A stretch of 49,597 nucleotides of DNA from an uncultured Candidatus Marinamargulisbacteria bacterium (lineage in GTDB: Bacteria; Margulisbacteria; Riflemargulisbacteria; GWF2-35-9): NCBI GenBank assembly GCA_903910705.1, contig CAIWAN010000057.1, forward strand, positions 1 through 49,597, in the 5' to 3' direction. The stretch's first letter is position 1. Every line of letters starts with the position of its first letter. A program made the position numbers and the translations under genes. The notes under the pieces are model-generated. The model had not been told where the DNA came from, made no database searches, and was given only the letters and a program-made list of their open reading frames with translations. Positions 4,726-47,124 of this stretch are shown here, one piece after another.

Positions 4726-4800
4726 CTCCTTTATTCTATATTATTACCATAGACATTGTAGAGCTTTTATATATTTTTGCAATGGCTTTGCAATTTCCCA

Positions 4801-4829
4801 TTGACACCCCACACTCAATACCTCATAAT
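4801..4829 (+). promoter_or_regulatory. Sigma70-type promoter of metY-mar operon
   Basis: TTGACA (4801-4806), a 17-base spacer and CATAAT (4824-4829). The transcript would start near 4836, inside the operator that follows. Confidence 0.7.
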
Positions 4830-4831
4830 CC

Positions 4832-4855
4832 ATACTAAGTTAATAGGGTTAGTAT
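4832..4855 (+). promoter_or_regulatory. Palindromic operator of mar operon (candidate Rrf2/CymR site)
   Basis: A perfect inverted repeat ATACTAA-N10-TTAGTAT starts two bases after the -10 box, where a bound protein would block transcription. Bases 4825-4846 are identical over 22 positions to the minus strand of 20533-20554, in front of the double ABC operon. A third copy lies at 26022-26045. Two Rrf2 regulators in the window are the obvious candidates to bind it. Confidence 0.65.
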
Positions 4856-4881
4856 TATTAGTAAATTCAAGGAGGTTTATG

Positions 4882-6180: not shown

Positions 6181-6182
6181 TC

Positions 6183-7061
6183 ATGGTAGCAAAGAAAGTT
6201 ACACAGATCGCGATCTATGGAAAAGGGGGGATCGGCAAATCGACCACCACCTCCAATCTGACCGCCGCATTGTCTCTAGCCGGCTATAAAGTGATGCAGT
6301 TTGGTTGCGATCCCAAAAGCGACTCAACCAACACGTTACGGGGCGGCACCTACATTCCCACCGTACTCGATTCCCTTCGAGAATCCACCCTCATCAAACC
6401 TGAAGAGGTTATTTACACGGGGTTTAATGGGGTTTACTGCGTCGAAGCGGGTGGCCCAGCCCCAGGGGTCGGTTGTGCTGGACGTGGCATCATCACCGCG
6501 GTCGAACTGCTAAAAAAAGGTCGGATCTATGAAGAGCTCGACCTCGATTTTGTGATTTATGATGTTCTCGGCGACGTTGTTTGTGGTGGCTTCGCGATGC
6601 CCATTCGAGAAGGCATTGCCGAACATGTCTTTACCGTGTCCTCGGCTGACTTTATGGCCGTCTACGCCGCGAACAATCTATTCAAAGGCATACAAAAGTA
6701 TTCCAATACGGGTGGTGCGCTCCTCGGTGGGGTCATCGCCAACTCCATTAATGCACCCTATTCCAAAGATATCATTGATGATTTTGTCAAACAAACTGAG
6801 ACGCAAGTCATCGAATACATCCCCCGTTCTGTCACGGTTACGCAAAGCGAGTTGCAAGGTAAAACCACCCTCGAGGCCGCACCCAATTCTGAACAAGCCA
6901 AAGTCTACAAACGACTGGCCGAGAAAATCGCAAATCACACCGAGTCCAAAACACCCAAACCGCTTGATGTCAAAGAACTGCGAGATTGGGCAGCCAAATG
7001 GGGCGACAATTTATTGGCCCTTGAACGCGGCGAGATCCGCTCCGAAGCAGCAGGGATCTAA
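6183..7061 (+). CDS. marH: Methylthio-alkane reductase iron protein MarH (NifH-like)
   Basis: A 292-residue NifH-type ATPase that delivers electrons to the catalytic component. The P-loop GKGGIGKS is at 13-20, switch [10 protein letters not shown] at 41-49, and 4Fe-4S ligands C98 (GVGCAGRG) and C134 ([10 protein letters not shown]). R101 matches the Arg that is ADP-ribosylated in NifH. These features fit nitrogenase-type reductases, with length close to NifH. A strong AAAGGAG lies before the ATG, and the gene is two bases behind metY. The neighbours (NifB-like, two NifDK-like subunits, MetY) point to the methylthio-alkane reductase group rather than nitrogenase, protochlorophyllide reductase or CfbC. 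Confidence 0.88.
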
Positions 7062-7069
7062 TTTCAGCC

Positions 7070-7951
7070 ATGAACGCCCATGATATTAAACACCCCTGCT
7101 TGAACCCTGCGGTGCGGCATATTTATGGGCGGGTTCATTTACCCGTCGCGCCTCGATGTAATGTTCAATGCAATTTCTGTAGCCGACGCTTCGACTGTGT
7201 CAATGAAAGCCGACCGGGCGTAACCAGCACTTTGCTATCACCCGAATCGGCTCTGCACTATCTCGACGAGATCTTACAGCGCCGACCCAACATCACGGTG
7301 GCGGGGATAGCCGGTCCAGGCGACCCGTTCGCTAATCCAAAGGAAACGCTCGAAACCTTGCGCTTGATCCGAGAAAAGCACCCGACCCTGTTCCTCTGTA
7401 TTTCGACAAACGGTCTGGATGTTCTGGACTATATTGAAGAGCTCGCTCATCTCAAAGTTGGCAGTGTCACGTTGACGGTTAATGGCATAGACCCGACCCT
7501 TCTCGCCAAGATTTATTCATGGATCCATTACAAAGGCAAAACCCTTAAGGGCCTTGAAGCCACCGAGATCCTCCATCAAAACCAATTTAACGCCATTCGA
7601 GCGTTAAAGGCGAAGGGCATCTTTGTTAAGGTCAATACCGTGCTTATCCCCACGATCAATGACCTTCATATCGTTGATATTGCGAAGGCCGTCGCGTCGC
7701 TCGGCGCTGATCTGCTTAACGTTATTCCACTCATCCCAACAGCCGAGACGGTATTTGAAACCTTGCCCGAACCCTCGAAAGCCGACGTGGCCGATATTCG
7801 TAAACAGGCGGAACACTATCTCCCTCAAATGAGTCACTGTCAGCGCTGTCGGGCCGATGCCGTTGGGCTCCTCGGTGAATCCTCGTGTAAAGATGATTTT
7901 GACCGCCTCAAGCAATATTCAAATAGAAAAGAAGTGAAATATGGTAGTTAA
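7070..7951 (+). CDS. marB: NifB-like radical SAM cofactor maturase MarB
   Basis: A 293-residue radical SAM protein related to NifB, which fuses two 4Fe-4S clusters with a carbide and sulfur to make the NifB-co precursor. The SAM cluster motif is RCNVQCNFC (C30, C34, C37), followed by the NifB signature RRFDCVNESRPGV with C43. Also present are GIAGPGDPFANP (79-90) and the C-terminal CQRCRADAVGLLGE (C257, C260). The C-terminal NifX domain of longer NifB proteins is absent; a separate NifX-like gene lies at 10722-11072. It overlaps marD by 11 bases. Its presence separates this cluster from Bch/Chl and Cfb reductases, which do not use NifB. Confidence 0.9.
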   Translation: MNAHDIKHPCLNPAVRHIYGRVHLPVAPRCNVQCNFCSRRFDCVNESRPGVTSTLLSPESALHYLDEILQRRPNITVAGIAGPGDPFANPKETLETLRLIREKHPTLFLCISTNGLDVLDYIEELAHLKVGSVTLTVNGIDPTLLAKIYSWIHYKGKTLKGLEATEILHQNQFNAIRALKAKGIFVKVNTVLIPTINDLHIVDIAKAVASLGADLLNVIPLIPTAETVFETLPEPSKADVADIRKQAEHYLPQMSHCQRCRADAVGLLGESSCKDDFDRLKQYSNRKEVKYGS

Positions 7952-9416
7952 TCTAAAAAGTCATCAGAATGAGAATAGAGAATCCCGCTTAGGCTCGATC
8001 ACCGGTTACAGTGGCACGCTCCGTGACCTCAGTGCACAAAGTGGTTGTGGAGGGCCTGCGAATAGAGAACGCTGCTTTAGCCAAGCGAGTCTATGTAATG
8101 CGGCTTGTGCGCTCGGCTTGACCTCCTTTATTGTCGACGCGGTCATTGTCCAGCATTCCCCTTCGGGGTGTGCCGTTACCGCCATGTCCGTCAGCAACTC
8201 AACCGATCAACTCGCCGCGACGATCAAGCTCGATAATTCAAGGTCCGCCTATGTTTGTACGGACATGAATGAATCGGATACGGTCTTTGGCGCAACGGAG
8301 AATCTCGGACAGGTGATCCGTGAAACCTATCAACGCTATCAGCCAAAGGCCATCTTTATCGGTGCGTCCTGTGTTAGCGGCGTTATCGGAGAAGACCTCG
8401 AAAGTATCGCCCGCGAATTGCACGACGAGCTCGGCATTCCCATTGCCCCGATCCACTGCGAGGGATTTCGCACCAAGATCTGGGCGTCGGGCTTTGATGC
8501 GGCGTTCCATGCGATCCTGACCCATATTGTCAAAAAGCCCGAGAAAAAAACTAACGTGGTGAACGTTATCAATTTCTTCGGCGGAGCCCGAAAAGAGATC
8601 ACCGAGATCTTTAGTCATTTTGGGATCGAACCCATATTTGTCATCACCAACACCACGGTCGATCAACTCGCCAGAATGTCCGAGTCGATTGCCACCTTAA
8701 GCACCTGCGGAACCCTCGGCACCTATTTGGGCAACGGGCTAGAAGAAGCCTATGGGGTTCCCTATGTCCGCTCGCTTCAACCCCACGGCATCGCAGGGAT
8801 CGAAAGTTGGCTTGGCGAACTCGGCAAAGTGATCGGTAAAGAGAAAGAAGTCGCTGCCTTTCTTGCCGGTGAAAAAGAAAAATACCTCCCTCAAATTAAC
8901 GAGATCAAAAAAAAGCTCAAAGGGCTAAAAGCGGTTGTGGGTATGGGGCCAGGCTTTGGGTTTAACACGATCCGCTCACTTCAAGAACTGGGCGTTGAGA
9001 TCGTCTACAGTGCCGCTTGGCATTTTGATAAAGAATATGACGATAAGAAAGCCCCGAATGCGTTTCAATATCTGGTAGAAAACTCTCCCAACAACTACCC
9101 CATGGCGGTCAGTGATCTTCAAAATTATGAGCTGATCAATATTTTAAATACCATCCGACCGGACATCTTTTTCGCGCGGCATCCGGGGTCGGCCGTTTGG
9201 GCCATGAAGCTTGGGATTCCGGCCATCTGTTTGTATGACGAATATGCGGTATTCGGATACAAAGGGCTTCTCAACTTTGCCCATTCCATTCATGACGTCG
9301 TGACCAATCGAAGTTTCACCAACAACCTTTCAAAACGGGTCGATCTGCCGTATTCCGACTGGTGGCTCAACCACAAAGCAGATCATTTTCTAAAGAAGGA
9401 GGCTCACCATGCTTAA
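7941..9416 (+). CDS. marD: Methylthio-alkane reductase subunit MarD (NifD-like)
   Basis: A 491-residue NifD homologue forming, with MarK, the catalytic heterotetramer that cleaves C-S bonds of methylthio-alkanes to methanethiol plus alkane or alkene. By eye, the P-cluster cysteines correspond to C52 or C56, C77 (HSPSGCAV) and C144 (GASCVSGVIGED). C256 in STCGTLGTYLG fits the cysteine that holds the active-site cofactor (NifD Cys275). In the C-terminal part, YDEYAVFGYKG aligns with the NifD segment carrying the cofactor histidine (His442), and that position appears to be C430 rather than His. The gene overlaps marB and marK. The cofactor-ligand change is an alignment inference. Confidence 0.88.
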   Translation: MVVNLKSHQNENRESRLGSITGYSGTLRDLSAQSGCGGPANRERCFSQASLCNAACALGLTSFIVDAVIVQHSPSGCAVTAMSVSNSTDQLAATIKLDNSRSAYVCTDMNESDTVFGATENLGQVIRETYQRYQPKAIFIGASCVSGVIGEDLESIARELHDELGIPIAPIHCEGFRTKIWASGFDAAFHAILTHIVKKPEKKTNVVNVINFFGGARKEITEIFSHFGIEPIFVITNTTVDQLARMSESIATLSTCGTLGTYLGNGLEEAYGVPYVRSLQPHGIAGIESWLGELGKVIGKEKEVAAFLAGEKEKYLPQINEIKKKLKGLKAVVGMGPGFGFNTIRSLQELGVEIVYSAAWHFDKEYDDKKAPNAFQYLVENSPNNYPMAVSDLQNYELINILNTIRPDIFFARHPGSAVWAMKLGIPAICLYDEYAVFGYKGLLNFAHSIHDVVTNRSFTNNLSKRVDLPYSDWWLNHKADHFLKKEAHHA

Positions 9417-10725
9417 AATTATCGATCAACCCCGTTACGTGTGTGCTTTAGGCGCCATGCAAACCGTTCAGGGCATTCATCGAGGCGTTCCGGTGCTTCA
9501 TGCAGGCCCCTGTTGTGCCCAGAAATTGGCCGAAGGCATTGCCGGAAACAATGGCAATTCGGGCTATATTTCGCCCCACATTTATCCGTGTACGAATATC
9601 TCCGAGAAAGAGACCATTTTTGGTGGAGAAGGACGGCTCAAAGAAACCATCGAGAATGCGCTCAAGGTGCTCGATGGCGATCTCTTTGTTGTGCTATCCG
9701 GCTGCACGGTTGAGATCGTCGGGGATGATATCGCTCAGGTCGTCAGTGAATTCTCGGATAGCGGCAAACCGATCATCTATGTCGAGACAGCCGGATTTAA
9801 AGGCAACAACCTCGAGGGGCACCAATGGGTTGTCAATGCTATTATCGAACAATACCTTGCCAAACAACCCCCCAAAGACAAGATCAAAGGTCTCGTCAAT
9901 ATTTGGGGCCCCGTCCCCTCGTATGATCCATTTTGGGTGGGCAATGTCCGCGAGCTTGAGGCGCTTGTTGCCTCGCTTGGGCTAACCCCCAATTCGATCT
10001 TCGGCGAATATCGAGGTATCGACAATATCGACAAGGTCCCCCAAGCTGAATTCAATCTACTCGTGTCGCCATGGCTCGGGCTAGACACCGTCAAGCTACT
10101 GGAAACAACCTTCGGGACCCCTTACCTGCATTGTCCAACCATCCCCATCGGGGCGTTCGAAAGCACTCATTTCTTGCAAACAGTTGGCGCTTTTGCGGGC
10201 ATTTCTTCGGCTAAGATAAAAACAATCACTCAAGCCAAAGAAAAAGAATACTATTATTATATCGAACGTAACTCTGATGTTTTCCTAGAGAACCGCTCGA
10301 TGTCTCGACGATTCTCGACAGTATCCAACGCGGCTGATGCACTCTCGATCGCCAAGTTCCTTGTCAATGACTTTGGACTCTTCCCTGCCAGACAGTACAT
10401 CACCGATGCAACCCCCGAACCCTACCGAGACGCCATCCGTCAGTACTTCAAAGAATTTCAGTACGGCATCGAAGCCGATGTCTTGTTTTCAACCGATGGC
10501 TATCTGATCCACGAAGACATTAAGAAGACCGATTATTTTGGCTCGCCCCTTCTTGTGGGCAGTATCTTTGAGAAAAAACTCGCCGAAAAGTTGTCCGGCA
10601 ATTTCCTCGCGGTGTCAGTGCCCATTAAGGAACGGCTGATCCTTGATAGCTCGTATGTGGGCTATCGTGGCGGACTTAAACTGCTCGAAGATATTTACGG
10701 ATATGTGTTAAGAAAGTTTAACTAG
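9409..10725 (+). CDS. marK: Methylthio-alkane reductase subunit MarK (NifK-like)
   Basis: A 438-residue NifK-type partner of MarD. P-cluster ligand candidates are C12 (RYVCALGAMQ), C35 or C36 (HAGPCCAQKL) and C99 (LSGCTVEIVGDD), matching the three-cysteine layout of NifK. It lacks the long N-terminal extension of classical NifK, as other short nitrogenase-like beta subunits do. An AGGAGG ribosome-binding site precedes the ATG, which overlaps the marD end by eight bases. It is last in the operon and ends in a four-base convergent overlap with the NifX-like gene. No nifE/nifN scaffold pair follows, so cofactor assembly must rely on MarB and proteins encoded elsewhere, or on MarDK itself. Confidence 0.87.
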   Translation: MLKIIDQPRYVCALGAMQTVQGIHRGVPVLHAGPCCAQKLAEGIAGNNGNSGYISPHIYPCTNISEKETIFGGEGRLKETIENALKVLDGDLFVVLSGCTVEIVGDDIAQVVSEFSDSGKPIIYVETAGFKGNNLEGHQWVVNAIIEQYLAKQPPKDKIKGLVNIWGPVPSYDPFWVGNVRELEALVASLGLTPNSIFGEYRGIDNIDKVPQAEFNLLVSPWLGLDTVKLLETTFGTPYLHCPTIPIGAFESTHFLQTVGAFAGISSAKIKTITQAKEKEYYYYIERNSDVFLENRSMSRRFSTVSNAADALSIAKFLVNDFGLFPARQYITDATPEPYRDAIRQYFKEFQYGIEADVLFSTDGYLIHEDIKKTDYFGSPLLVGSIFEKKLAEKLSGNFLAVSVPIKERLILDSSYVGYRGGLKLLEDIYGYVLRKFN

Positions 10726-34659: not shown

Positions 34660-34773
34660 ATGGATCGACCTACACCCATTAAGCCCTCTTCCGAACAATG
34701 GAAGGCGCAGGTGATCGAGAAAATGGTTCATTTTAAAAGTATTCTGCTTAAGTTTTTAGAAAAGATATTTTAA
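34660..34773 (+). CDS. Possible small protein (37 aa)
   Basis: A 37-codon frame (starts MDRPTPIKPSSEQWKAQVIE, ends FLEKIF) begins two bases after the preceding stop. It ends with a four-base overlap with the convergent 751-residue gene. The spacing suggests coupled translation; the AGGGA directly at the ATG is too close to be a good ribosome-binding site. Reported with low confidence. Confidence 0.3.
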   Translation: MDRPTPIKPSSEQWKAQVIEKMVHFKSILLKFLEKIF

Positions 34774-37025
34774 GGTACCCGTATTCGTTTAAAAACGATA
34801 TGCTGCGAGTCAATAAACTCGCCCTTTATGCTGCCGCTCTCGGCATTTATTGACCTGACAACTATTGCCGAATCCACGTTAACTTTTTTTCTTGCCTTTG
34901 ACACATCAACGTGACGCTCGATCCGCACCCTTTTAGTCGTAGGTTGAGTAAACAGTGTCGGGGGTTGAACTTCAATCCTTGTTTGTCTGACCTTATTGGT
35001 CACCCATTTCTCTCCACTCTGACTCTCCGTCCAATCTGTTTTAGTGTTTATCACAACGGCCTTAAAACTTTTTAACAGGGGGCTGTTTTGAACCGTACTC
35101 ATTTTGAAGCTCTCTGATTCAAGATTGATCCCTCCCCCCACCTCGACGAGAAGCGGGGTTATTTTCGATTGAGCCTGATTAAAATCAGTCACTCGTTCAT
35201 TAAATCGATCCGATCGGGCCCGATAGGCTTCCACTTCGGCGTTAAAGAGCTCATGTGTCATATTCGGAGAATCTTTGATCTGTTCTTGAAGCAAAGACAA
35301 TTCCTTCCTCTTTTCGGTTAAGGCTTTATTTTCTTCTTCCAATTGGCTAATTTCCAATCGGATAGCCGCCATGGGTCGCTTTCTCTCCCCTGCAAATAAA
35401 GCAAAAGCCTGTAGATCCTTTTGTTCATGGATCAGCGTTCGGACAGGTTGATGGCCTCTACTATTCATGATGCGTAAAGCGTCCTCTTGCCCCGACTTCT
35501 CCGAAAGAAAGTGGGCTAAGTCTTTTGTGTCGTTGAAATAGGTCGAAATGGACTTATCTAACTCAGGGGTTAAGTACGTGATGTCTAGCCGATTCTTCTC
35601 AGGGTTTAGCGTTGAGGCCGCAATAAGTTGCGTCCTCTCACGTTCGGTATGAACGGTGGGGATTTTGACCGACAACAAGGCATCCAGATCAAGGCCTTGG
35701 GGATCAACCTTAAAAAGCCAACTGCAAATGGCCATTAAACGGCCTACCGTTTCGAGTTCTCTAAACTCTCTAAACGCTTGGGCGTACTGAGAATAATTAC
35801 GATTAAGGTCATCAATGTTCGCTTGGATAGCGGGCAACAAAAAAGCCTTTTTCTTTTTCATATATTCCGCAGATGATCCGAAATCATCTCGGCTTCGTTC
35901 CGCATCGGCCAGAAATCGTGGGGTCACAATTCGAGCGAAATGCTTTGTGGGATCGGTTTGAACCTCGATGGAGTCTGGATAAAACCAAAACCTTGTTTTG
36001 ATCCACCCTTTATTATTGATAAGTCCCGACATCCCCTCCCGTTCACTCACAGTTAGAAAAAGGGGAACATGTTGACGAGTGGTCATCCGAATATCTTTGC
36101 CATTATTGGGGTCTAGTCCACTTGTTAGGGTTTTAAATCGTTTATCGGCGTCAAGAACCACTTTACCGATAGCCGTATCTTCGAGATAACCTCCAAAATT
36201 CACCGCGGCTTTGGTTACATCAACATGCGGATCGAGACTGATGAAGGCCTTATTTTCTCCTGCATGAAATACAGCTCGATAAGCAACCGACAAATCAGCC
36301 AGTTTCACAGGGGAACCATTCAGGGTTTGGGGTTGCGCCACTTTAGAATAGAGCGAAAGCCCTGCTCTTTCATTGATCTGAGCCCCTTCGAGTTGCCCTC
36401 CCATGGCAAAGAAGTCTCGAAGTCCCTCCAAATCAAGTGGCGTCTTTCCTGCGGGTGTACCAAAATATGCGCCATTGATCATGACCGGCTCTGGATTAAG
36501 CTTAAACGACAGTGAGCGATAATCATTTTCGAACGAATAGACCTCAACATGTAGTTTTCCCCATACCGGTTTGAGGGTGTTAAGCAGGTGTCTCACGATC
36601 GAATAATTTGCGTTATAAGCAAGTTGAGGCGTCGCCCCTTGGAGGAAGAGTCTTACCGTTCTCTTGTTGTCCGTATAGGCGGACATGCGTCCACTTCGAA
36701 ACAAAGCGACCCATGCCGGTTGCTCGGTTCCAACGGGGTAATTCTCGACAACATTTCTAAAGGTTGGGGATTCTTTATTTACAAGCTCTATCGCATATTC
36801 CAATAGATAGGAATACTTGTCTAGAAAGGGCTGTAACGCTCCCTTAAGATGATTGCTAGCTAAAGCGGAACCCAAACTCTGCCCCGTACGGATCAAGACG
36901 CCTCTGTCTACGAGATCGCTATAATCTACATTTAACCCTTGAAGATCTTGGGCAAAAGAAAAATGAAGAAAAAGAAAAAATACAACAATGACCCGCCCAC
37001 GACAACAGTTTGACAGGGCGAGCAT
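34770..37025 (-). CDS. Large secreted protein of unknown function (751 aa)
   Basis: A 751-residue protein with an N-terminal signal (RVIVVFFLFLHFSFAQ) and no further membrane helix. The middle (about 180-400) is predicted beta-rich. Residues 545-620 form a coiled coil (AAIRLEISQLEEENKALTEK and following). The C-terminus is beta-rich and polar. No known domain is recognised. It is followed on the same strand, 22 bases upstream, by the chemoreceptor gene, so both may be one transcript. A periplasmic or surface role is likely from the signal peptide; nothing more can be said. Confidence 0.7.
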   Translation of the reverse strand: MLALSNCCRGRVIVVFFLFLHFSFAQDLQGLNVDYSDLVDRGVLIRTGQSLGSALASNHLKGALQPFLDKYSYLLEYAIELVNKESPTFRNVVENYPVGTEQPAWVALFRSGRMSAYTDNKRTVRLFLQGATPQLAYNANYSIVRHLLNTLKPVWGKLHVEVYSFENDYRSLSFKLNPEPVMINGAYFGTPAGKTPLDLEGLRDFFAMGGQLEGAQINERAGLSLYSKVAQPQTLNGSPVKLADLSVAYRAVFHAGENKAFISLDPHVDVTKAAVNFGGYLEDTAIGKVVLDADKRFKTLTSGLDPNNGKDIRMTTRQHVPLFLTVSEREGMSGLINNKGWIKTRFWFYPDSIEVQTDPTKHFARIVTPRFLADAERSRDDFGSSAEYMKKKKAFLLPAIQANIDDLNRNYSQYAQAFREFRELETVGRLMAICSWLFKVDPQGLDLDALLSVKIPTVHTERERTQLIAASTLNPEKNRLDITYLTPELDKSISTYFNDTKDLAHFLSEKSGQEDALRIMNSRGHQPVRTLIHEQKDLQAFALFAGERKRPMAAIRLEISQLEEENKALTEKRKELSLLQEQIKDSPNMTHELFNAEVEAYRARSDRFNERVTDFNQAQSKITPLLVEVGGGINLESESFKMSTVQNSPLLKSFKAVVINTKTDWTESQSGEKWVTNKVRQTRIEVQPPTLFTQPTTKRVRIERHVDVSKARKKVNVDSAIVVRSINAESGSIKGEFIDSQHIVFKRIRVP

Positions 37026-37047
37026 TATTTTAAGAACCGTAATTGAA

Positions 37048-39258
37048 CTAGGCGGCGGCGATCAGTCTCTCCAATAGGCCAACCACTATCGATGAATAAT
37101 TCTTGGCCTCAACCAATTTTTGTTGTGCACTATCTTTTTGCCCTGCGTGATGAAGTCTAACAAGTTCATTCCCTAAAGCATGAACTTTTTCATGAGGGGT
37201 TAATAGACTCTTAAAAGTCTCTGTATGACCGTATTCATTCTTGCCCGCTCCATCGTACCATTTCCCGAAGCGACATGTGTGATGGTCCGCTAATGTTCCA
37301 AGGTCTATATTCGCTTGCCCCATCAATAATCTTTCTAATCGAGCAATAAAGGATTGGTGATCATAGATCGCTAGTTCAATTATGCTGGTTTTTGCTTTAT
37401 GGGCATCAAACTTATAGGTGGCAATTATGGCTTTAAGCGACAGGGCTTCTTTAGACAACTCTTGGGATGAGTAAGACACTTTATCTATCGAAGCATTTGT
37501 CTCCTGCATTGATGCAGAAGCCTGTTCGCTTGAAGCGGCAGATTCTTCGGCTACGGCACTTACATTAATAATTGATTCTTCTACTTTTGCAGAACTTGCC
37601 AACTGATTTTCTGTCGAAGCAGAGATCTCCTCCACTTGAGAAGCAACCTCTACAACCCGCTGAGCGATAATATCCAATGCATTTAGTGCTTCATTAACCA
37701 CTGCATTACTATGAGTGATCCGTGAAAAGATCTCGTCCATATCTTTTTTTATGGAATCTGAAACCATAAGGATCATCTCCTTGGTTCCACTCATTTCATG
37801 CTCCGTCTCCTCAGACTTCTTCTGCGTGGCTTCGATGAGCTCATTGATTTGAAGCGTGGCTTGATGGGATCCTTCGGCTAGCTTTCGAACCTCATCCGCA
37901 ACCACCGCGAAACCTTTACCCGCTTCCCCTGCACGCGCTGCCTCGATGGCCGCATTAAGCGCTAATAGATTTGTCTGATTAGAGATGCCAGAAATGACAT
38001 CGGTAATCTGAGTAATTTTGCTCTGATGGGTAACGAGTTCCGTTACTTTTGTTGCTGACTTGGAAATATTATTCTCAATATCTTTCATCGATCCTTCCGT
38101 TCGATTAGCGATGGCTTTAACTGACTGCTGAATATTGTTCATTTCATCAATAGTCACCGAGGCGGCATGTGAGCCTTTTTGAGCCGCTTCATTAGCTGCA
38201 GACACCTTAACGACTGTATCCTGAGCAGCTTCTGCTATAGCATTAATCGAGTAAATAAGGCCCGTTACTTCGTGCTTTGTTTCTGATGCTATATCGCTAA
38301 GCGATTGCCCCCCCGTTGCGATCTCTTGAACGGCCATCGATACTTGATTGGCCGCCACACTAATCTGACCGGAAATAGAGGCAATCTCTCGTGCGGCATT
38401 GGACGTAGCCTCTGCCGTTTTTGTAGCATTAGCAAAAAAGTACTGCAAGTTGGCGATCAAATATCGGAATGAATATGCTAATGTTCCCACCTCATCCTGA
38501 CGATCGATCAGATCAACAGGAATCGATGTTCTCAAGTCCCCAGAAGCCATGGCATTCGCGATTATTTCAAGCTGCTGTAGCGGCTCAGCGATCAACTTAT
38601 TCATGACCTTGGCGATCGAGCGAGAAAAGAAGATACCGAATCCCCCACCAAATAGAAGCAGGAAAAAACAAGCAACAATGATGCCTATCATTACCGCGGA
38701 ATCGTGGTGGATCTTTTTCCCTACATCTTTTAATAGTCCATCCAGCTCTAGGCGGGAGGCTGTTACGCCTTTATCTATAGTCGTAATCATATAATCATAC
38801 ATGGCCTTATACGACTCATTTGTAGGCGTTTGCTCGTAAGCATTCACTAGTAGAAGAAATTGCGCTCGTGTTTTATTCGCTCCGACACATCGATCCTGCA
38901 ATGCGTTGATCGCCGTTGATTCTTTTTTGCTTTTGTAGAGTTTCTCCACAACTTGGAAGGCTTCATTTTTTGTTTTTTCTTGGATCGAAAGGTTTCTTTT
39001 TATCGAAGCAATCGCCTCAGCAGAAAGGTCCTTAATAAGAAACATGTTCATCTGAGCGTCCATCTCGGTGACGGCCTCTTTGATAACGGATATCTCTTGA
39101 GAAACGATGACCTCTTTATCTACAATTGCGCTCATTAAGGTAAATAAATAGGCAACACCCAGAAGACAAAGAATAACCGCAATAATGATCCCCACGACCA
39201 CTTTACTCGCTATTTTGTTTATTTTATGTCCAATCGCCCCATCTAATTGACTTGCCAT
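37048..39258 (-). CDS. Methyl-accepting chemotaxis protein with C-terminal CZB domain
   Basis: A 736-residue chemoreceptor. A first membrane helix is at about 18-42, then a four-helix-type periplasmic domain to about 190, a second helix near 190-215 and a HAMP region with [20 protein letters not shown]. The signalling tip is [20 protein letters not shown]. The last 95 residues carry a chemoreceptor zinc-binding (CZB) domain: [12 protein letters not shown] and PHEKVH supply the His/Cys ligands. CZB domains sense zinc or hypochlorite. CZB at the end of a membrane MCP is less common than in soluble ones. No che genes are near. Confidence 0.9.
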
Positions 39259-39381: not shown

Positions 39382-40086
39382 GTGAGCAGTTTGATCAATG
39401 GGCATGTTAATGGGTTCATCGCCTTTTTTTCGGGGCTTCTATCCTTTTTATCGCCCTGCATGTTGCCTCTTATCCCCCTGTACATCCTCTATTTTTCAGG
39501 CTTAACCCTACAGCAACTTAAGGATCCCACTCAGTCACACCAGCAGGTCACGAAGTTGTTAATTCGAAACACCAGCGCCTTCATTATCGGGTTTACGATT
39601 ATCTTTGTATTACTTGGTGCTTCAGCGACCCTTTTAGGCCAATTCATAACTCGTTATACAGGGGTTCTACTCCTCTCTGGCGCCTTGCTCATCATTATTT
39701 TGGGGCTTTACATGGTCGGCTTTTTAAAATGGAGCTTCTTTTCTCGATCATGGAGCATTCACACTTCAACCAACAAAGGAACACTCTGGGGTGCATTTCT
39801 ATTTGGCGTTGTTTTTAGTTTGGGATGGACCCCCTGTACCGGCCCGATCCTGACAAGTATTCTTATTCTTGCTGGATCAGAAAAATCAATTTGGCAGGGC
39901 ATGTTGCTGCTATTTATCTATGCATCCGGATTAGCGGTACCGTTCATCATTACGGCATTTGTTTGGGGTAAAGCCCTGTCATTGATCAATTGGGGGAAAC
40001 AATACAGTCTGATCCTTGAAAAATTAGGGGGAATGATATTTATTGTAATAGGGATTTGGATGTTATTCAAAGGGGGGCATTTATGA
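39382..40086 (+). CDS. CcdA-family thiol-disulfide electron carrier
   Basis: A 234-residue membrane protein of the CcdA/DsbD-beta type with six predicted helices. The redox cysteines lie in FLSPCMLPLIPLY and GWTPCTGPILTS, both with the family prolines. It passes electrons from cytoplasmic thioredoxin to extracytoplasmic partners. The start GTG 39382 has no good ribosome-binding site, so the N-terminus is uncertain by a few residues. The stop overlaps the start of a TlpA-like gene (ATGA), its probable partner. Confidence 0.87.
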   Translation: MSSLINGHVNGFIAFFSGLLSFLSPCMLPLIPLYILYFSGLTLQQLKDPTQSHQQVTKLLIRNTSAFIIGFTIIFVLLGASATLLGQFITRYTGVLLLSGALLIIILGLYMVGFLKWSFFSRSWSIHTSTNKGTLWGAFLFGVVFSLGWTPCTGPILTSILILAGSEKSIWQGMLLLFIYASGLAVPFIITAFVWGKALSLINWGKQYSLILEKLGGMIFIVIGIWMLFKGGHL

Positions 40087-40544
40087 AATTTATCTGGGGT
40101 TTTGTTTTGGCAAGCACACTTCTTTTTGCTCAATCGATCCCTAACTTTAAACTCACGGAACTCAATCAAAAACCTGCATGGCTTCATCAGATCACAAAAG
40201 AAAATGAGCTAACAATAGTTTCACTGGTGACGCTCACGTGCCCCTATTGCCTAAAAGAAATGAAGGACTATACTCGTTTATCGCAAAAATTCGGAATTAA
40301 AAAAGTCGGTTTTGTTGCCCTGTTCTTGGATAATAACCCACGAATGATCCAGGCCTTAATCGCCCGCGATAAAATCACTTACCCCGTCCTTATCGCGGGG
40401 TCAGACATGTCAAAGTATTTTGGAATAAGAGGGGTTCCTTTTACCTTTATTCTTGATAGCAATAATATTATTATTGAAAAGATCCCTGGATACGTCCCTA
40501 TTGAAAGTATGGACGAATATATCACCCATTATTTAAACAAATAA
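40083..40544 (+). CDS. TlpA/ResA-like extracytoplasmic thioredoxin
   Basis: A 153-residue thioredoxin-fold protein with signal peptide (FIWGFVLASTLLFAQS) and active site CPYC in LTCPYCLKEMKDY. The cis-Pro is in IRGVPFTFIL. ATG 40083 overlaps the ccdA stop; the longer frame from 40056 lies inside ccdA. Together they form a reductant pair for periplasmic disulfides, for example apocytochrome c or sulfur proteins. Confidence 0.88.
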   Translation: MKFIWGFVLASTLLFAQSIPNFKLTELNQKPAWLHQITKENELTIVSLVTLTCPYCLKEMKDYTRLSQKFGIKKVGFVALFLDNNPRMIQALIARDKITYPVLIAGSDMSKYFGIRGVPFTFILDSNNIIIEKIPGYVPIESMDEYITHYLNK

Positions 40545-40691: not shown

Positions 40692-41921
40692 CTACTTTGT
40701 CAGTTGAAGAATCAGATCGACCTCACCTTTACCCATATTGAGATAGCGGGCAACCTCGGCTGACTCTGTACCCACCGACGTCAAGGCGACGACCTTTTCA
40801 TTCTTTGTCATCGAATCATTGGCTAGAATGCTTTCAATTTCCGACTTTAGATCAGGATCCATGTCATCATCAAGAAACAGTGATTCGGCTGTTTCGGAAG
40901 CCGCCTCTTCGGTATGCTCGATCTCATCGGCGAGTTGCTCAGCCAAAGATCGCTCGGGTTTATCAACCACTGGGATCGGAGGGGGTTCAACAGGTTGCGG
41001 AACAGGCTCCTCAAGGATCATCTGGGGCTCACGTTTAGGTTCCTTTTCTATGGGAAGCGGTTCAGGAATTTCTGCGACAGGTCGTTGTTCAGGAATGGAT
41101 AATGTCTTTGCCTCGATCAGTTTTTTATCGAGCTCACCCAAAACCGCCTTGGCTTTTTCCGTAACATTATCAGACGTTTCATGAAGCTCTCGCATCAAGG
41201 TACTCACTGAGTTCTCCAGCTCTTCCAACCGATTGGTTTTCTCAAGAACCCCTAGACTACCGAGCTTCTTATTCACTCGCCAATAGAGGAAACCTAACAC
41301 TCCGACAAAAAAGAAACTAACCATTAAGGATATAGGCAGTATGGGGCTACTGGATTGCCGCTTGAGGCTTTTCAGACCCGCACGCAAGAGAGCGACCTCT
41401 CGTTTTAGACGCTCTTGCTCCACAAAACTTTGATCTTGCAAGGCTTCTTCGACTTGATTAGAAACAACGCTTTCTGCTAGGTTTGACGTGCCTTGGATTT
41501 CTTGTACAACTCTGATCGGTTTGGGCCCTTGTGCAACGATACGCTTAATATTGTTTATCCAGTCTGACATTAAGCTCTCCGGCGTTGAGCCGTTTGCAGC
41601 CACCTCTTCGGGATAAATGGAGAACAGTTTATCTTTATCCAGAATGGCCGTGTAAATATCGTTTGGGTAGGAAAAGCGGATCTTCTCGAAGTCGGTTAAT
41701 GCGGTGATCCGTTGAGATAATCGTTCGGCGACAACCTGCGCGCGTCCGTAGGGCGATAATGCTCCTTCTTTAGACAAGAGTCGCATGACGGTCAGCCCAT
41801 TTCCCTGCACTTCCCCGATCTTTTTGCCTTGATAGAGGGTCTCCTTGGCTGAGAACTGAACACTTGCGCCTAAAGACACACTGAGGATCGATAACAACAG
41901 AATGGTCAAGGTACGTTTCAT
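40692..41921 (-). CDS. Membrane-anchored coiled-coil protein with SwrB/DUF6115-like tail
   Basis: A 409-residue protein: signal (residues 1-19), a folded N-terminal domain to about 125, a coiled segment at 155-195, a membrane helix PISLMVSFFFVGVLGFLYWR, then a second coil. A Pro/Glu-rich linker follows, and finally VARYLNMGKGEVDLILQL. That last motif matches the C-terminal helix-turn-helix-like tail of SwrB (DUF6115), a Bacillus protein that promotes flagellar assembly. It is the last gene of the fliF/fliG/fliM-like operon, which makes the match meaningful. The N-terminal domain is unknown. Confidence 0.65.
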   Translation of the reverse strand: MKRTLTILLLSILSVSLGASVQFSAKETLYQGKKIGEVQGNGLTVMRLLSKEGALSPYGRAQVVAERLSQRITALTDFEKIRFSYPNDIYTAILDKDKLFSIYPEEVAANGSTPESLMSDWINNIKRIVAQGPKPIRVVQEIQGTSNLAESVVSNQVEEALQDQSFVEQERLKREVALLRAGLKSLKRQSSSPILPISLMVSFFFVGVLGFLYWRVNKKLGSLGVLEKTNRLEELENSVSTLMRELHETSDNVTEKAKAVLGELDKKLIEAKTLSIPEQRPVAEIPEPLPIEKEPKREPQMILEEPVPQPVEPPPIPVVDKPERSLAEQLADEIEHTEEAASETAESLFLDDDMDPDLKSEIESILANDSMTKNEKVVALTSVGTESAEVARYLNMGKGEVDLILQLTK

Positions 41922-41923
41922 GT

Positions 41924-42253
41924 CTACCCCCTCCAGTCTAGGGCATTGCCTAGCTCAGGATCATTATACACAACATACTCAACATTTTCAGGCTCTTGCG
42001 CGTCAACATCGACGGTCGATGGTTCTTTTTCTTCCTCTCGATAGGGTTGTCGTGATGGTGCATGATCGGTATTGATCACCACTTCATCAGCGCCCTCCAC
42101 CATCTTTGTCGACATCTCGTGTTCGGCTTGATCTTTTTGGATTAAATGAGCAAGCTGTTGTTGTTGGATCCTCAAGAAGTCATCACTGGCCACCTTAGAC
42201 AAGTCAGAACGCTGGTTTGCCAACGACGACATATCAACGGGTGTTATGGCCAT
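41924..42253 (-). CDS. Small acidic protein in fli-like operon (109 aa)
   Basis: A 109-residue soluble, acidic and probably disordered protein (MAITPVDMSSLANQRSDLSK, tail EYVVYNDPELGNALDWRG). It directly follows the TPR protein stop and is two bases ahead of the SwrB-like gene, so it is part of the operon. It resembles adaptor-like small proteins of flagellar clusters only in size and N-terminal pattern. No domain is recognised. Confidence 0.65.
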   Translation of the reverse strand: MAITPVDMSSLANQRSDLSKVASDDFLRIQQQQLAHLIQKDQAEHEMSTKMVEGADEVVINTDHAPSRQPYREEEKEPSTVDVDAQEPENVEYVVYNDPELGNALDWRG

Positions 42254-43504
42254 CTATTTTGCCTCCCAAAGTTTCACATCGATATGGTGGTCTTGAAGGA
42301 AAGTATTCAACACTTCGTTGTTTTTGTCTAGTTCATACGCTCTACGCCATGCCGTAATGGCAGACTGCTTCTGCCCCATTGTCCAATATATCGAGCCCAT
42401 TTGAATATGGATCTCAGGGATCTGACTATTGATAAGATTGGCCTTTGAGAGCTCCCCGATGGCTTCGGGGTACTGCTCATCATAATAATATTGAAGGGCT
42501 CGGTAATAGTATTTTAAGACATCTTCCTTGAGCTGAGAGACACCTTTAAATCCATCTGAAACGATCAACTCACGCAGGGATTTGATATCGGACTTAAAAC
42601 GATCTTTTTGTGCTTTGGCGTCATCCAAGGCTTTGACCAGCTCGTTCATGATCAGAGTTTTCTTCTCTTTTATTTCAGTTAAAATCTGTTCGCTCTGATC
42701 GGCATTCGAGATCATCACATTAAGCTTGTCCTTTAAGAACACACTCTTATCGTCTATATCTCTTAGTTTATTGGCCATTCGCCCGAGCTCTTCACTGTAT
42801 GACGAAAAGAGATTGAATGAATAATCAAAACCCACGCTCAATGTCTCAAACGGCACACTTGAACCATAGGCAGGATTGTTGCCCGTCCGCGCAGGCAGCT
42901 GTGTTAAGGCGACATTAAGTGCAAGCGATCCATTCAGGGGGAAATGAAGTCCTAAATTAAAGTCTTTGCTGTCATATTCGACACTACATCGGGGAGAGGT
43001 TTGGATATCCTTTGAGAAATAATAGGACGCCGAAAAAAAGATAGGATTCAACCTCCCTTTACCTATCCCCAGTGTATATTCCCATGGCCATTGATGGGAG
43101 GTTGCTACAACGTATGCACTCATGGCATTTGAAACGTCTTCAGCGATCGTCTCGATGGTGGAGTCTTTTGCTCGTCCGGTGATCTGCTCGACCCCAATGG
43201 CTACATCCATCAAGGGAACAATGTCTTTGGCCACAATAAGCTGCATATTGGCAACAGTACTCGCGGCATGAATACGCGTGATCCCCACTTGCAAAACGTC
43301 GGTCACTTGGTAGTTGAGAAAATAATCGTCTTCCCACACCGTGTTGCTGCCGTCAAGATACGGTGCACTACTGCCCCCCATCCCCACTTGCCCCATGGCC
43401 CCTGACTTGACAATGGGGGTATTGATGTTTGTATTCACCCGATTAAACACCGCCGACAGAGAAAGGCTCAGGACTAGGCTGATCATAATGAACGTTCTCA
43501 TCAT
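42254..43504 (-). CDS. Outer-membrane barrel-like protein with C-terminal TPR (416 aa)
   Basis: A 416-residue exported protein: signal FIMISLVLSLSLSAVF, a beta-rich region of about 220 residues (PLNGSLALNVALTQLPAR, VGFDYSFNLFS) typical of barrels. A helical spacer follows, then tetratricopeptide repeats (YYRALQYYYDEQYPEAIGEL, IQMGSIYWTMGQKQSAITAW) at the end. Start overlaps the previous stop. It is a paralogue in layout of the next gene (43501-44619). The pair could form the outer-membrane part of a machine whose inner part is the FliF/FliG-like proteins; that is inference. Confidence 0.7.
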   Translation of the reverse strand: MMRTFIMISLVLSLSLSAVFNRVNTNINTPIVKSGAMGQVGMGGSSAPYLDGSNTVWEDDYFLNYQVTDVLQVGITRIHAASTVANMQLIVAKDIVPLMDVAIGVEQITGRAKDSTIETIAEDVSNAMSAYVVATSHQWPWEYTLGIGKGRLNPIFFSASYYFSKDIQTSPRCSVEYDSKDFNLGLHFPLNGSLALNVALTQLPARTGNNPAYGSSVPFETLSVGFDYSFNLFSSYSEELGRMANKLRDIDDKSVFLKDKLNVMISNADQSEQILTEIKEKKTLIMNELVKALDDAKAQKDRFKSDIKSLRELIVSDGFKGVSQLKEDVLKYYYRALQYYYDEQYPEAIGELSKANLINSQIPEIHIQMGSIYWTMGQKQSAITAWRRAYELDKNNEVLNTFLQDHHIDVKLWEAK

Positions 43505-44619
43505 TTCGCTGCTCCCTCCGCCGCAAAAAGGTTAGGATGTTCTCTCTGGAGTTTCGCAAGGCTTTCACGGGCCTCATCACTGGTGGGGTCTAAAGATAGC
43601 CATAATTGCCATTCAAGCTTGGCCTTTTCAAAATGGCCCATTACATAATGCAAACTACCCAAGCTCGCGTGAACAACCGGCAAATTCGGATAGAGCGTAT
43701 TTGCCTTTTGATATTCCTCAGAAGCATGCTCATAGTCGCGGGCATAAAACAATTCTGTCCCTTTCTTGAGCGACTGAAGGGTTAATTTCAATCGATCCGT
43801 TTCATTGTCGGTATACTTGCGATCTACCAGTTGTTGACTGAGCAGTTCATTGAGCAATTTTTTCTGAAAGGTCTCCGAATAAAGCGTCTCCATGGCCGTT
43901 AAGCGGGATTGAAGAACGTAAATTTTTTGATCTTGCTCTTGACTCAAGGGATTGGCCATATTTTGAGAAAGACTAGGCTGCATCAACCACGTAAAGGATA
44001 TTTCAGCTGACCGATAATCGATCTGATCTTGATTGGGTACAGGCGCCATTCCCAAAAGACTGACCCTCAAACGATCATCGATGGGCACCGATAAGCCGAT
44101 CCCGATTGCTCGGTTCTCCAAAAACACATCCATTTCAAACCGACCTAGAAAAGTTGACTGAGCAGAAAGGATCGGATCGAGATAGTCGGCACCATTATTG
44201 ATCATACGCTGAACGCCTAAGGTTAATTTCAACTTTGTCATGTCCACTAAACAGGTCACAAATTCTTGACCAAAAGGACTCGTCGTATCGGCATAGCTTG
44301 TGCCTAGATTTCTCACCCCAACATCCATGGGTCCCCACGCCGTATTCACGTGGGTTTGTAGGCCCATTGTTAGTTTATTTGAGAGATACTTTTTCTCGAA
44401 AGAAAGTAACAACAGTTCGGCGAGTTGATATCGAAATCGCGTACTGTCTTTTAATTGAAGGGATCCGCCCCGATTAAAATAGGCCTGAGCATAATTCACT
44501 TCATGGGTGCCTTGGGGATAATCGGTCGGGCGGGGATATCCAAAACCATTATCCCCAATATTGATGGCCAAAACGAGAGGAAGGGCAACTATGGAAAAGC
44601 AAAGGACGCCAAACTTCAT
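43501..44619 (-). CDS. Outer-membrane barrel-like protein with C-terminal TPR (372 aa)
   Basis: A 372-residue exported protein: signal FGVLCFSIVALPLVLA, beta-rich body (LTMGLQTHVNTAWGPMDVGV, IGIGLSVPIDDRLRVSLLG), helical linker and TPR tail (LFYARDYEHASEEYQKANTL, VHASLGSLHYVMGHFEKAKL). ATG 44619 overlaps the FliM-like stop (ATGA), so the longer frame to 44646 is not used. Same architecture as the downstream gene, but low sequence similarity, suggesting an old duplication. Confidence 0.7.
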   Translation of the reverse strand: MKFGVLCFSIVALPLVLAINIGDNGFGYPRPTDYPQGTHEVNYAQAYFNRGGSLQLKDSTRFRYQLAELLLLSFEKKYLSNKLTMGLQTHVNTAWGPMDVGVRNLGTSYADTTSPFGQEFVTCLVDMTKLKLTLGVQRMINNGADYLDPILSAQSTFLGRFEMDVFLENRAIGIGLSVPIDDRLRVSLLGMAPVPNQDQIDYRSAEISFTWLMQPSLSQNMANPLSQEQDQKIYVLQSRLTAMETLYSETFQKKLLNELLSQQLVDRKYTDNETDRLKLTLQSLKKGTELFYARDYEHASEEYQKANTLYPNLPVVHASLGSLHYVMGHFEKAKLEWQLWLSLDPTSDEARESLAKLQREHPNLFAAEGAAK

Positions 44620-45143
44620 GGTTGAGGCTCCGCTTGAGTATCCCAATGAAAATCGCGATCGACACAGAGAAAGATCATGCCCGCCTGATGCGGACCGATC
44701 TTGACTTCAAAAGCAACCTGCCACACTAATTCGTCGGGCAAATAGATATAAAAGAACTTGGGGCTTTCGGCGATCTTCCCTACACTTAAGGAAACGCCTT
44801 GTTTACGAAATGCGGCCTGTGTCCAATGAATAAGATGATGCCCCAGTGCATTGTCTGAAGCCGAAAAAGTCGATCGACCACGGGGCTCTATGACGCCCTC
44901 TCCGCCGAGCAATCGATTCGAAAGTCGATGAATGATCGGCGCATCAACGGCAATAAGAATGGGCGCTTTGTCTGAATTGTAGAGTGAAAAGGTAAAGTAG
45001 TCGCTTTCAAGCTGCTGTATCGACTGAAACGGGATCATTTTTTTCCCAAAGAAACGGCAGGTGAAATGCGTTTGGAGTTGCCCCGAAACCGAGTCACTGA
45101 GGAGCAATGCCATTTTTTTTACTAACAACTCTAGTTCTGGCAT
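44616..45143 (-). CDS. FliM-like middle-domain protein, shortened
   Basis: A 175-residue protein resembling only the middle domain of the flagellar switch protein FliM. VDAPIIHRLSNRLLGGEGVI fits the FliM pattern before the GG..G loop. FliM proteins are about 330 residues; both the N-terminal CheY-binding peptide and the C-terminal SpoA domain are missing. Without SpoA it cannot build a normal C-ring. The start overlaps the FliG-like gene by 13 bases. Assignment rests on that motif plus the fliF-fliG order, so it is moderately sure. Confidence 0.55.
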   Translation of the reverse strand: MPELELLVKKMALLLSDSVSGQLQTHFTCRFFGKKMIPFQSIQQLESDYFTFSLYNSDKAPILIAVDAPIIHRLSNRLLGGEGVIEPRGRSTFSASDNALGHHLIHWTQAAFRKQGVSLSVGKIAESPKFFYIYLPDELVWQVAFEVKIGPHQAGMIFLCVDRDFHWDTQAEPQP

Positions 45144-46105
45144 CGCAACGTCACGCGCCCTTCCTGCTCAAGTTTTCGTGCAGTCTCCATAAAATATCGC
45201 TTTGCTTCGTCCGTTCGCTCTTGATCGAAGGTCAACCCTGACGTTTCGATATCCACCCTCGACAACATTTTATCGGTCATACATCGATTGATCTTAGCCA
45301 CCCAATCTTCTTGAAGTTGAAGTCGGAGGTGAGCCACATGCCGATAATCAAAGGAGGCGGACATCATCGTTCGAAGTGTTTCGTCCGGTAAATCCATTAG
45401 ATCATCGAAGGTAAAGACCAGTTGTCTCAACCGCTGTGCAAGTTCGGGTGAGCGCTGACTGTAGCCTTTAAGTAGAGACTCTCTACGTGATTTGGGCAAA
45501 TACTCGATCATGCTGGCAATCTTACGAACACTCGCATCATCTGACGAGGATCGCTCTTGCTGAAGTCGATCAAAATAAGCAGCCCACGCCACCTCAACCT
45601 CATCAAGCAGATCGGGCGAGGGAACACTGACCCCTTTGTCCAGGGAAAAAACGACAGGGTCATCCCCTAGCAACAGTAGAACCTGCGAGGCTTTTTTAGG
45701 GCTCAAGAAATGAAAGAGGAGGGTTTTGGCTTGGTTGGTCTCTGTCCCAAGGAATTGAACAATGTCTTCATCGGAAACGTTGTCTAGAAACCGGAAACGG
45801 TCTTTGTTGTTTTTAATAATGGCGGACGTTTGGTCTTCACCAAAAACCGCAGTGGCGATGCGAGCGGTAACCCCACTCCCTCCATAGATCGACTCATTGT
45901 CAAAGGCGACCGCATAGAACTCTTTAATGACAGACTGGCATCGTTCTGGTGATAGACAGTTCATTTCACTCATTGCCCCGAGAATGGTTTTTGCATGATC
46001 TGACTCCATGCCCGAAATGATCGGTTCGATAACACCCGGAGCTATCTTTTCAAGCGACAAGAAAAGAACCGCTGCTTTTTGGACTTGCTCTGTTGTCAGT
46101 CTCAT
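45131..46105 (-). CDS. FliG-like switch protein
   Basis: A 324-residue protein with the layout of FliG. The N-terminal part (LTTEQVQKAAVLFLSLEKIA) fits the FliF-binding domain, and FTFDDLMDLPDETLRTMMSA the middle/C-terminal armadillo motif. A final helix follows (DEAKRYFMETARKLEQEGRV). Length is near the usual 335. The charged residues of the torque helix are less regular than in standard FliG. ATG 46105 overlaps the FliF-like stop (ATGA). It is probably docked on the ring encoded by the gene before it. Confidence 0.75.
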   Translation of the reverse strand: MRLTTEQVQKAAVLFLSLEKIAPGVIEPIISGMESDHAKTILGAMSEMNCLSPERCQSVIKEFYAVAFDNESIYGGSGVTARIATAVFGEDQTSAIIKNNKDRFRFLDNVSDEDIVQFLGTETNQAKTLLFHFLSPKKASQVLLLLGDDPVVFSLDKGVSVPSPDLLDEVEVAWAAYFDRLQQERSSSDDASVRKIASMIEYLPKSRRESLLKGYSQRSPELAQRLRQLVFTFDDLMDLPDETLRTMMSASFDYRHVAHLRLQLQEDWVAKINRCMTDKMLSRVDIETSGLTFDQERTDEAKRYFMETARKLEQEGRVTLRCQN

Positions 46106-47124
46106 GATTTCACCTCGGAAGAGGCCAGCCAACGATTGATCGCAGAAATGAATGCTTGCGGCTGACGCTGCGCCATTAAGGCAAGTTCGTCTAATTGACT
46201 CTTTGTTTGGAAATCGATCCGATCGGAGGGTTCAGGTCGGGTTGCGTTTAAGGCTTGTCTTTTTAAGACCTGATGTCGTTTCAAGCGGGGCCATGCCCAT
46301 CGCCCAACGCTCATTATGCTCCCAGCAACCAAAAGGACGAACAGTAAAGCTAAAATTTGATGCTGTGCCTTTTGTGCTTTGTTAATCGCCAAATGCCCCC
46401 ACTGGTTTACCCAATAGAGCCAGCCTTTAAAGGGATAAGCGACGATCTTGATCGTATCCCCTCTATCGGGAAGAAACCCAATGGTTGAACGGATAACCCC
46501 ACTCACATCTTCGGTTGTGATATTCAATTCTTTCAACCGATCTTGATCGAGAATAACGCTGACCGACAGATGATCAATAATCGACTCTGGGTATACGATC
46601 GTCTCTTTGTTTTCATTGAAAAACTGTTTTATGTGGGTCTGATGACTTTGCGCCTCTCTGTTTTCAACGACTCCACGCTTCTGGATGGGGAAGCCCGGCA
46701 AGATCGAAACAGGCGCTTTAGCCGGCCGTGGAGATATCCCTGGAAGACGTTCTTGGGGGTCAAAATCGGGAGCCTTCATCACAGCGGGTTGATTCTCCTT
46801 TTCACTAACAGGGAACCGGAACGTCTGATCAATTCTTTCGGTAATATTTCGAGGCGTATACTGAACTCGCTGCAGTTCGCGTTTCACTTCTGACAACTGA
46901 ACACTCACGTTGATCACGTAGTGCTCATGCCCCATCATTCGATTGAGGGTTTGATCAACCCGATGCTGAAAGAACTGCTGTTTTTGAACATAAATGGGTG
47001 TCTGCGCCAGCTGAATAAGACGCGCAGATATAAGGCCTGCCACTAATATCAAGACAAGCCCTGCCGCCCACGGCAGTAACGATGGTTTATTTAATGTAAC
47101 GGGCTTAGGCCGATATTTCCTCAT
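46102..47124 (-). CDS. FliF-like MS-ring protein, shortened
   Basis: A 340-residue membrane protein. A membrane helix at 17-37 (LLPWAAGLVLILVAGLISAR) and another near 260-280 flank a periplasmic part. That part includes HYVINVSVQL and HLSVSVILDQ (FliF beta strands) and STIGFLPDRGDTIKIVAYPF (the FliF GF..RGD..v..pF motif). The tail QLDELALMAQRQPQAFISAI fits the FliG-binding end. Flagellar FliF is about 530 residues; the first ring-building motifs (RBM1/2) are missing. It is the first gene of a seven-gene operon. Confidence 0.72.
   Translation of the reverse strand: MRKYRPKPVTLNKPSLLPWAAGLVLILVAGLISARLIQLAQTPIYVQKQQFFQHRVDQTLNRMMGHEHYVINVSVQLSEVKRELQRVQYTPRNITERIDQTFRFPVSEKENQPAVMKAPDFDPQERLPGISPRPAKAPVSILPGFPIQKRGVVENREAQSHQTHIKQFFNENKETIVYPESIIDHLSVSVILDQDRLKELNITTEDVSGVIRSTIGFLPDRGDTIKIVAYPFKGWLYWVNQWGHLAINKAQKAQHQILALLFVLLVAGSIMSVGRWAWPRLKRHQVLKRQALNATRPEPSDRIDFQTKSQLDELALMAQRQPQAFISAINRWLASSEVKS

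Follow-up and report, generated by a model that had tools for sequence, protein, structure and literature searches.

FliF, FliG, and MotAB of the torque type count as hallmarks of the flagellum. The latest stator survey equates torque-interface stators with flagella, describes that interface in the flagellar-type (FIT) stators, and places GldLM, AglRQS, ExbBD, and TolQR among the generic, condensed stators (PMC12505986). The published contacts quoted there are those of MotA R90 with FliG D288-D289 and of MotA E98 with FliG R281 (PMC12505986). Searches of the openly accessible literature, which took in few subscription journals and preprints, yielded no account of FliF-FliG-MotAB operons outside flagella. 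Here, we describe a seven-gene operon that contains such rotor proteins, together with its relatives, and compare it with these systems.

Results

The window, which is the whole stretch of 49,597 nucleotides that was analyzed, is contig C57 of a 2.2 Mb Ca. Marinamargulisbacteria MAG (G000, 97.7% complete). It was compared with a MAG of the same genus (G001) and with two genomes of the same family (G002 and G003). Seven ORFs were present at 40692-47124, all on the minus strand and overlapping or 0-2 bases apart. This agrees with the tight packing described in the initial annotation, whose account of the first six products (a shortened FliF without RBM1/2, FliG, a FliM reduced to its middle domain without SpoA, two exported TPR proteins, and a small acidic protein) was also borne out. 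The first gene (46102..47124, minus strand) encodes a short FliF of 340 aa, in which a membrane segment (TM1, 13-42) is followed by an RBM3-type domain with an LPGFP-containing insert, a second membrane segment (TM2, 253-278), and a FliG-binding C-terminal tail. In the alignment this tail, LA..QP..FI..INRWL, resembles those of flagellar FliF. YscJ_FliF_C of Pfam was above cut-off (4.5e-13) with the full model covered, and the Pfam scan of this protein gave no match to PF01514. The profile of the short-FliF family matched the solved Salmonella FliF at 333-558 only (2.4e-14) and another FliF at 254-320; since the matches are restricted to these regions, the short FliF lacks RBM1 and RBM2. The second gene (45131..46132, minus strand) encodes a FliG-type rotor protein of 333 aa. 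Its N, M, and C parts were all recognized, FliG_C (6.1e-15) and FliG_N (1.5e-11) above the Pfam cut-off and FliG_M (4.8e-4) below it. The third (44616..45143, minus strand) encodes a FliM middle domain alone, 175 aa with a GGEG motif and neither the N-terminal CheY-binding peptide nor SpoA; Pfam FliM (6.6e-7) spans residues 1-161. No SpoA domain was found on the window contig, and the SpoA proteins of the genome sit on contigs C52 and C66. None of the operon's proteins reached the NCBIfam cut-offs for flagellar FliF, FliG, and FliM, with the short FliF scoring 16.4 bits against 129.75 for the fliF equivalog and FliG scoring 61.5 bits against 226.7 for the fliG equivalog.

The next two products, TPR1 (43501..44646, minus strand, 381 aa) and TPR2 (42254..43504, minus strand, 416 aa), are exported proteins with a hydrophobic N-terminal segment, a beta-rich-looking N-terminal part, and C-terminal TPRs; TPR2 also has a coiled coil. 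Pfam TPR_2 was found in TPR2 (1.7e-8), and the TPR matches in TPR1 were just under cut-off. TPR1 has a counterpart at the same place in the related operons, and the alignment of TPR2 across nine operons contains invariant N, P, G, and Y positions. AlphaFold2 models made from two-row alignments reached a pLDDT of 36 for TPR2 and 45 for FliF; the alignments were too shallow and the models unusable. The small acidic protein (41924..42253, minus strand, 109 aa, net charge -14) had no Pfam match, and its counterparts are conserved in G001, G002, and G003. The last gene (40692..41921, minus strand), whose product the initial annotation had called SwrB-like, encodes a bitopic protein of 409 aa that has an exported N-terminal part, a TM at 190-216, an acidic cytoplasmic part, and DUF6115 at 331-407 (Pfam, 3.9e-8). 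Relatives of this protein adjoin flagellar genes on C52 and in G007.

G001 has the complete set of seven genes in the same order, with 72-88% protein identity and dN/dS of 0.04-0.13 at a dS near saturation. For FliG, identity between the window and this uncultured Candidatus Marinamargulisbacteria bacterium is 81% and dN/dS is 0.09. These values indicate that the operon is under purifying selection. Misassembly was ruled out by the same gene order in an independent MAG, and this order, with the recurrence of related operons across the phylum, makes the operon real beyond chance. In both members of the genus, the operon is followed downstream by genes for a chemoreceptor and for an exported protein of 751 aa that belongs to no family (34770-39258). 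This pair was rejected as part of the operon: it is kept in G001 but does not adjoin the operon in G002 and G003. The CcdA/thioredoxin neighbors (39382-40544) were also rejected, being on the opposite strand and absent from this place in G001. Elsewhere in the window (4777-10725), NifH-, NifDK-, and NifB-like genes lie next to a cystathionine gamma-synthase family gene in sulfur-metabolism surroundings, and by sequence this region resembles a methylthio-alkane reductase cluster more than a nitrogenase.

The initial annotation had reported no other flagellar genes. This holds for the operon itself, but the rest of the genome does contain them. In G000, contig C25 carries flgBC-fliF-fliG-fliH-fliI-fliJ, C52 carries fliM and the block flgD-flgE-fliL-fliN-fliOPQR-flhB, C53 carries flhA-flhF with a sigma gene of the fliA type, and C61 carries three flagellins; some of these names were assigned by eye from gene order and sequence. 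The annotation had also considered that the operon might hold the only fliF, fliG, and fliM beside a normal flagellum; the flagellum has its own copies. Since this flagellum is complete and separate, the operon is an extra set, and a remnant of a lost flagellum was ruled out. The flagellar FliGs, including that of E. coli, formed one group (95/92) in an unrooted tree of FliG, apart from the FliGs of the window's operon type and of a fused type. This argues against a recent copy of the cell's own fliG, which is not supported in this unrooted tree with long branches. The E. coli references for the tree and the alignments are perhaps not letter-exact; in the alignments, the known residues have the right numbers.

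At least 12 of the phylum's genomes carry related operons, and eight of these lack flagellin. We call the operon type of the window type A; a second type has FliF and FliG fused. MotAB is located inside the operon in six genomes, namely the flagellated G002 and G003 and the flagellin-less G020, G028, G032, and G041. The order is FliF-FliG-MotA-MotB-FliM-TPR1-TPR2-...-small-DUF6115 in G002 and G003, FliF-FliG-MotA-MotB-FliM-TPR in G028 and G041, FliF-FliG-FliM-TPR-TPR-MotA-MotB in G032, and MotA-MotB-FliM-x-FliF-FliG-TPR-TPR in G020, where an unrelated-looking 581-aa ORF lies between FliM and FliF (L069 6783-8528). G045 and G049 have FliF-FliG-FliM-TPR-TPR, G012 has one fused protein followed by FliM-TPR-TPR, and in G030 FliF and FliG lie at a contig end. 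The most distant assignments (G041, G028, and G012) combine weak sequence matches with gene order. No export gate, rod, hook, or filament genes were found in the window operon or in those of its relatives. The search outside the phylum comprised a single pattern scan, with the FliG of the window as the only query. A Rhodobacteraceae match from the genome scan was rejected as a relative since it is an ordinary flagellar cluster.

The independence of these genes from flagella was surveyed in 55 genomes of the phylum, which share ancestry and so are not 55 independent tests. Flagellin was restricted to G000-G007 (8/55). MotA was present in 23 of the 55, and all 23 also carry FliG_C; among the 32 genomes without MotA, FliG_C was seen only in G018, as a weak partial match. 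Fifteen genomes have FliG_C and MotA and no flagellin. The score for canonical flagellar FliG was at least 131 bits in G000-G007 and at most 91 elsewhere, so that none of the 15 reached the canonical range; the eight flagellin-less type A carriers have no canonical flagellar FliG. Many of the non-flagellated genomes are incomplete MAGs and, thus, the absence of flagellin is weak in any single one. Incompleteness is unlikely to be the cause in all 15, since several are 90-97% complete and none has a canonical flagellar FliG score. The use of this rotor and ring base for something other than a flagellum is well supported.

The stators inside the operons were then compared with known ones. Operon MotAs fit the flagellar stator models (MotP/PomA/MotA, 1e-53 to 1e-62) far better than TolQ/ExbB (TolQ, 6e-6 or weaker) and so belong to the stator type with a torque interface (PMC12505986). 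MotA 90 is basic in 6/6 type A operons and in 0/7 of the fused type. On the rotor side, FliG 281 is basic in 14/14 type A proteins and 0/9 fused ones, and FliG 289 is acidic in 13/14 and 0/9, respectively. Every copy compared has MotB D32 and MotA P173/P222, most operon MotAs do not conserve E98, and the one operon MotB scanned has an OmpA-like domain. By sequence, the relatives' operon MotAB is of the FIT type, with a torque-interface MotA, MotB D32, and a peptidoglycan-binding domain in the one MotB scanned. The window FliG has K281, I288, and E289 (E. coli numbering), and its relatives have R281, mostly E or D at 288, and in most cases an acidic 289. The window's K281 and I288 are in line with a relaxed contact. 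The FliM GGXG motif is kept in the window and lost in G001.

No operon-type MotAB was found in the assemblies of G000 or G001 (the latter 82% complete). G000 has FliG_C at five places besides that of the window and five MotB genes elsewhere; its five MotAs and the five of G001 are apparently pairwise orthologous. The MotAB on C64, which resembles that beside the flagellar cluster of G007, is probably the flagellar stator, and the MotAs on C3, C70, and C104 cluster with those of the fused type. The MotAB on C53 has no adjoining rotor gene and is conserved in seven genomes of the order.

Other motor and export genes were seen in the phylum. Non-flagellar motors of a second family combine parts resembling FliF and FliG in one protein of ~480-570 aa, usually beside MotAB and often with a TPR protein (L020 7398-9708, L019 8053-11086, L022 9630-11348; L064, L067, L070, L136, and L137). 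These fused motors occur in genomes with and without flagellin, and neither their FliG part nor their MotA retains the charges of the FliG-MotA contact. Giant exported proteins of 1600-2600 aa with FlgD_ig/CHU_C-like C-terminal ends were observed (L054 321-6830, L020 9782-17512, L022 13236-18023, L088 12218-17998), several near motor genes, as were PorV/PorQ-family proteins near MotAB on C70 and C3 (L086 10687-11937, L019 14836-16275). One PorV_fam protein, next to MotAB on C70, was above cut-off and the others were below it; the giant protein that lies upstream of the operon in G002 matched CHU_C and Por_Secre_tail at cut-off. No SprA-like giant was recognized by eye in about half of the G000 genome. 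Additionally, G000 has a second flagellum-like export system (L021, C94; L089, C66; L016 10273-12372, C91) with FlgG, FlgH, FlgI, FliE, full FliF, FliH, FliI, SpoA proteins, and FlhA, in which FliG is represented only by a FliG_N fragment of 183 aa, with no FliG_C. FlhA occurs in 52 of the 55 genomes, most of them without MotA or FliG_C, and a motorless flagellar-type secretion system is apparently present across the phylum.

Discussion

We put at about 0.6 the probability that the type A operon encodes a stand-alone non-flagellar rotary machine, with a FliF-FliG-FliM rotor, a MotAB stator, and TPR proteins that couple it to the outer envelope. Short FliF would form a ring in the inner membrane, and FliG, bound to the FliF tail and braced by the middle domain of FliM, would serve as the cytoplasmic gear. 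In the fuller form, operon-encoded MotAB, anchored to peptidoglycan via MotB, would push the ring using the ion gradient. With no rod, hook, filament, or export gate, the periplasmic domain of FliF would hand rotation or twist to TPR1 and TPR2 and, through them, to the outer envelope. The genes present, their conservation, the co-occurrence with MotA, the independence from flagella, and the retained contact residues are observed; from them we infer the assembly of the ring, its rotation, its coupling to the outer membrane, and the work done. The initial annotation had suggested a ring base repurposed for an envelope-spanning device. Its non-flagellar use stands, given the flagellum's own fliF, fliG, and fliM and the eight flagellin-less carriers, four of which have operon MotAB; the reach to the outer membrane is suggested by signal peptides, the beta-rich look, and the TPRs. 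Since relatives without a flagellum carry the set with MotAB, it is probably a rotary machine with a different job.

In the window's genus, operon MotAB and part of the charge pattern have been lost and, therefore, the stator would be borrowed from elsewhere or the ring would now be static. For a borrowed stator, the best candidate that we can name is the orphan MotAB on C53, picked by exclusion. A static ring, which once rotated and in this genus now serves, without turning, as a platform for secretion or for envelope proteins, seems unlikely. It would explain the missing dedicated MotAB in G000 and G001, the changed contact residues (K281 and I288), and the loss of GGXG from G001 FliM, but E289 and a basic 281 are retained in a FliG under a dN/dS of 0.09, and a conserved, rotor-less MotAB is at hand on C53.

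The giant protein with a type IX-like C-terminal signal upstream of the operon in G002 and the PorV-family neighbors of motor genes on C70 and C3 suggest the export or movement of surface proteins. It is a long shot that FliF-FliG rings with MotAB, rotors of the flagellar type, took the place of GldLM in Margulisbacteria and drive a type IX-like or gliding machine by which giant surface proteins are exported or moved. Several such motors, that of the type A operon unfused and others fused, adjoin PorV-family proteins or exported proteins of 1600-2600 residues whose ends resemble sorting signals.

We consider it very improbable that the operon supplies the cell's own flagellum with an accessory switch complex or an alternative one. 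G000-G003 all have flagella, DUF6115 proteins also adjoin flagellar genes, and a chemoreceptor gene lies downstream of the operon. However, eight carriers have neither flagellin nor a canonical flagellar FliG, FliF and, in relatives, MotAB are encoded in the operon itself, and no type A FliG was found in the flagellated G004-G007. Equally improbable is a motor that turns the second export system in trans, as could be imagined from the carriers examined outside the flagellated class (G020, G032, and G045), which have only the FlhA type of that system. FlhA exists in most genomes that lack both MotA and FliG_C, so the export system occurs without the motor, and in G000 it has its own FliF and FliG_N-only protein.

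If the stand-alone rotary machine is real, a rotor-stator pair with outer-envelope partners and without flagellin or its own export system would make the motor a separable module. It would provide a natural test of the minimal requirements of a rotary motor and would bear on whether the flagellar motor and its export system have histories of their own. Automated calls of "flagellated" from fliG or motA are unsafe in such genomes.

Compared with the flagellar motor, the type A set has homologous rotor proteins, the FliG-binding FliF tail, the FliM middle domain, the contact positions, and, in six relatives, torque-interface MotAB. It differs in a FliF without RBM1/2, in the lack of SpoA/FliN, export gate, rod, hook, and filament, in its two exported TPR proteins, and in its occurrence in flagellin-less genomes. 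Judged by these parts, its product would work like a flagellar motor but is not a flagellum. Non-flagellar type III secretion systems and flagellum-derived basal bodies share the YscJ/FliF-type ring; in contrast to type III secretion, the type A operon has no FlhA, FliPQR, or FliI and keeps the torque part that injectisomes lack. GldLM (type IX secretion and gliding), AglRQS (Myxococcus), ExbBD, and TolQR are also ion-driven inner-membrane motors thought to move parts of the outer envelope, but they have no FliF/FliG rotor ring, whereas the type A stator is of the flagellar type and would act on a ring of FliG.
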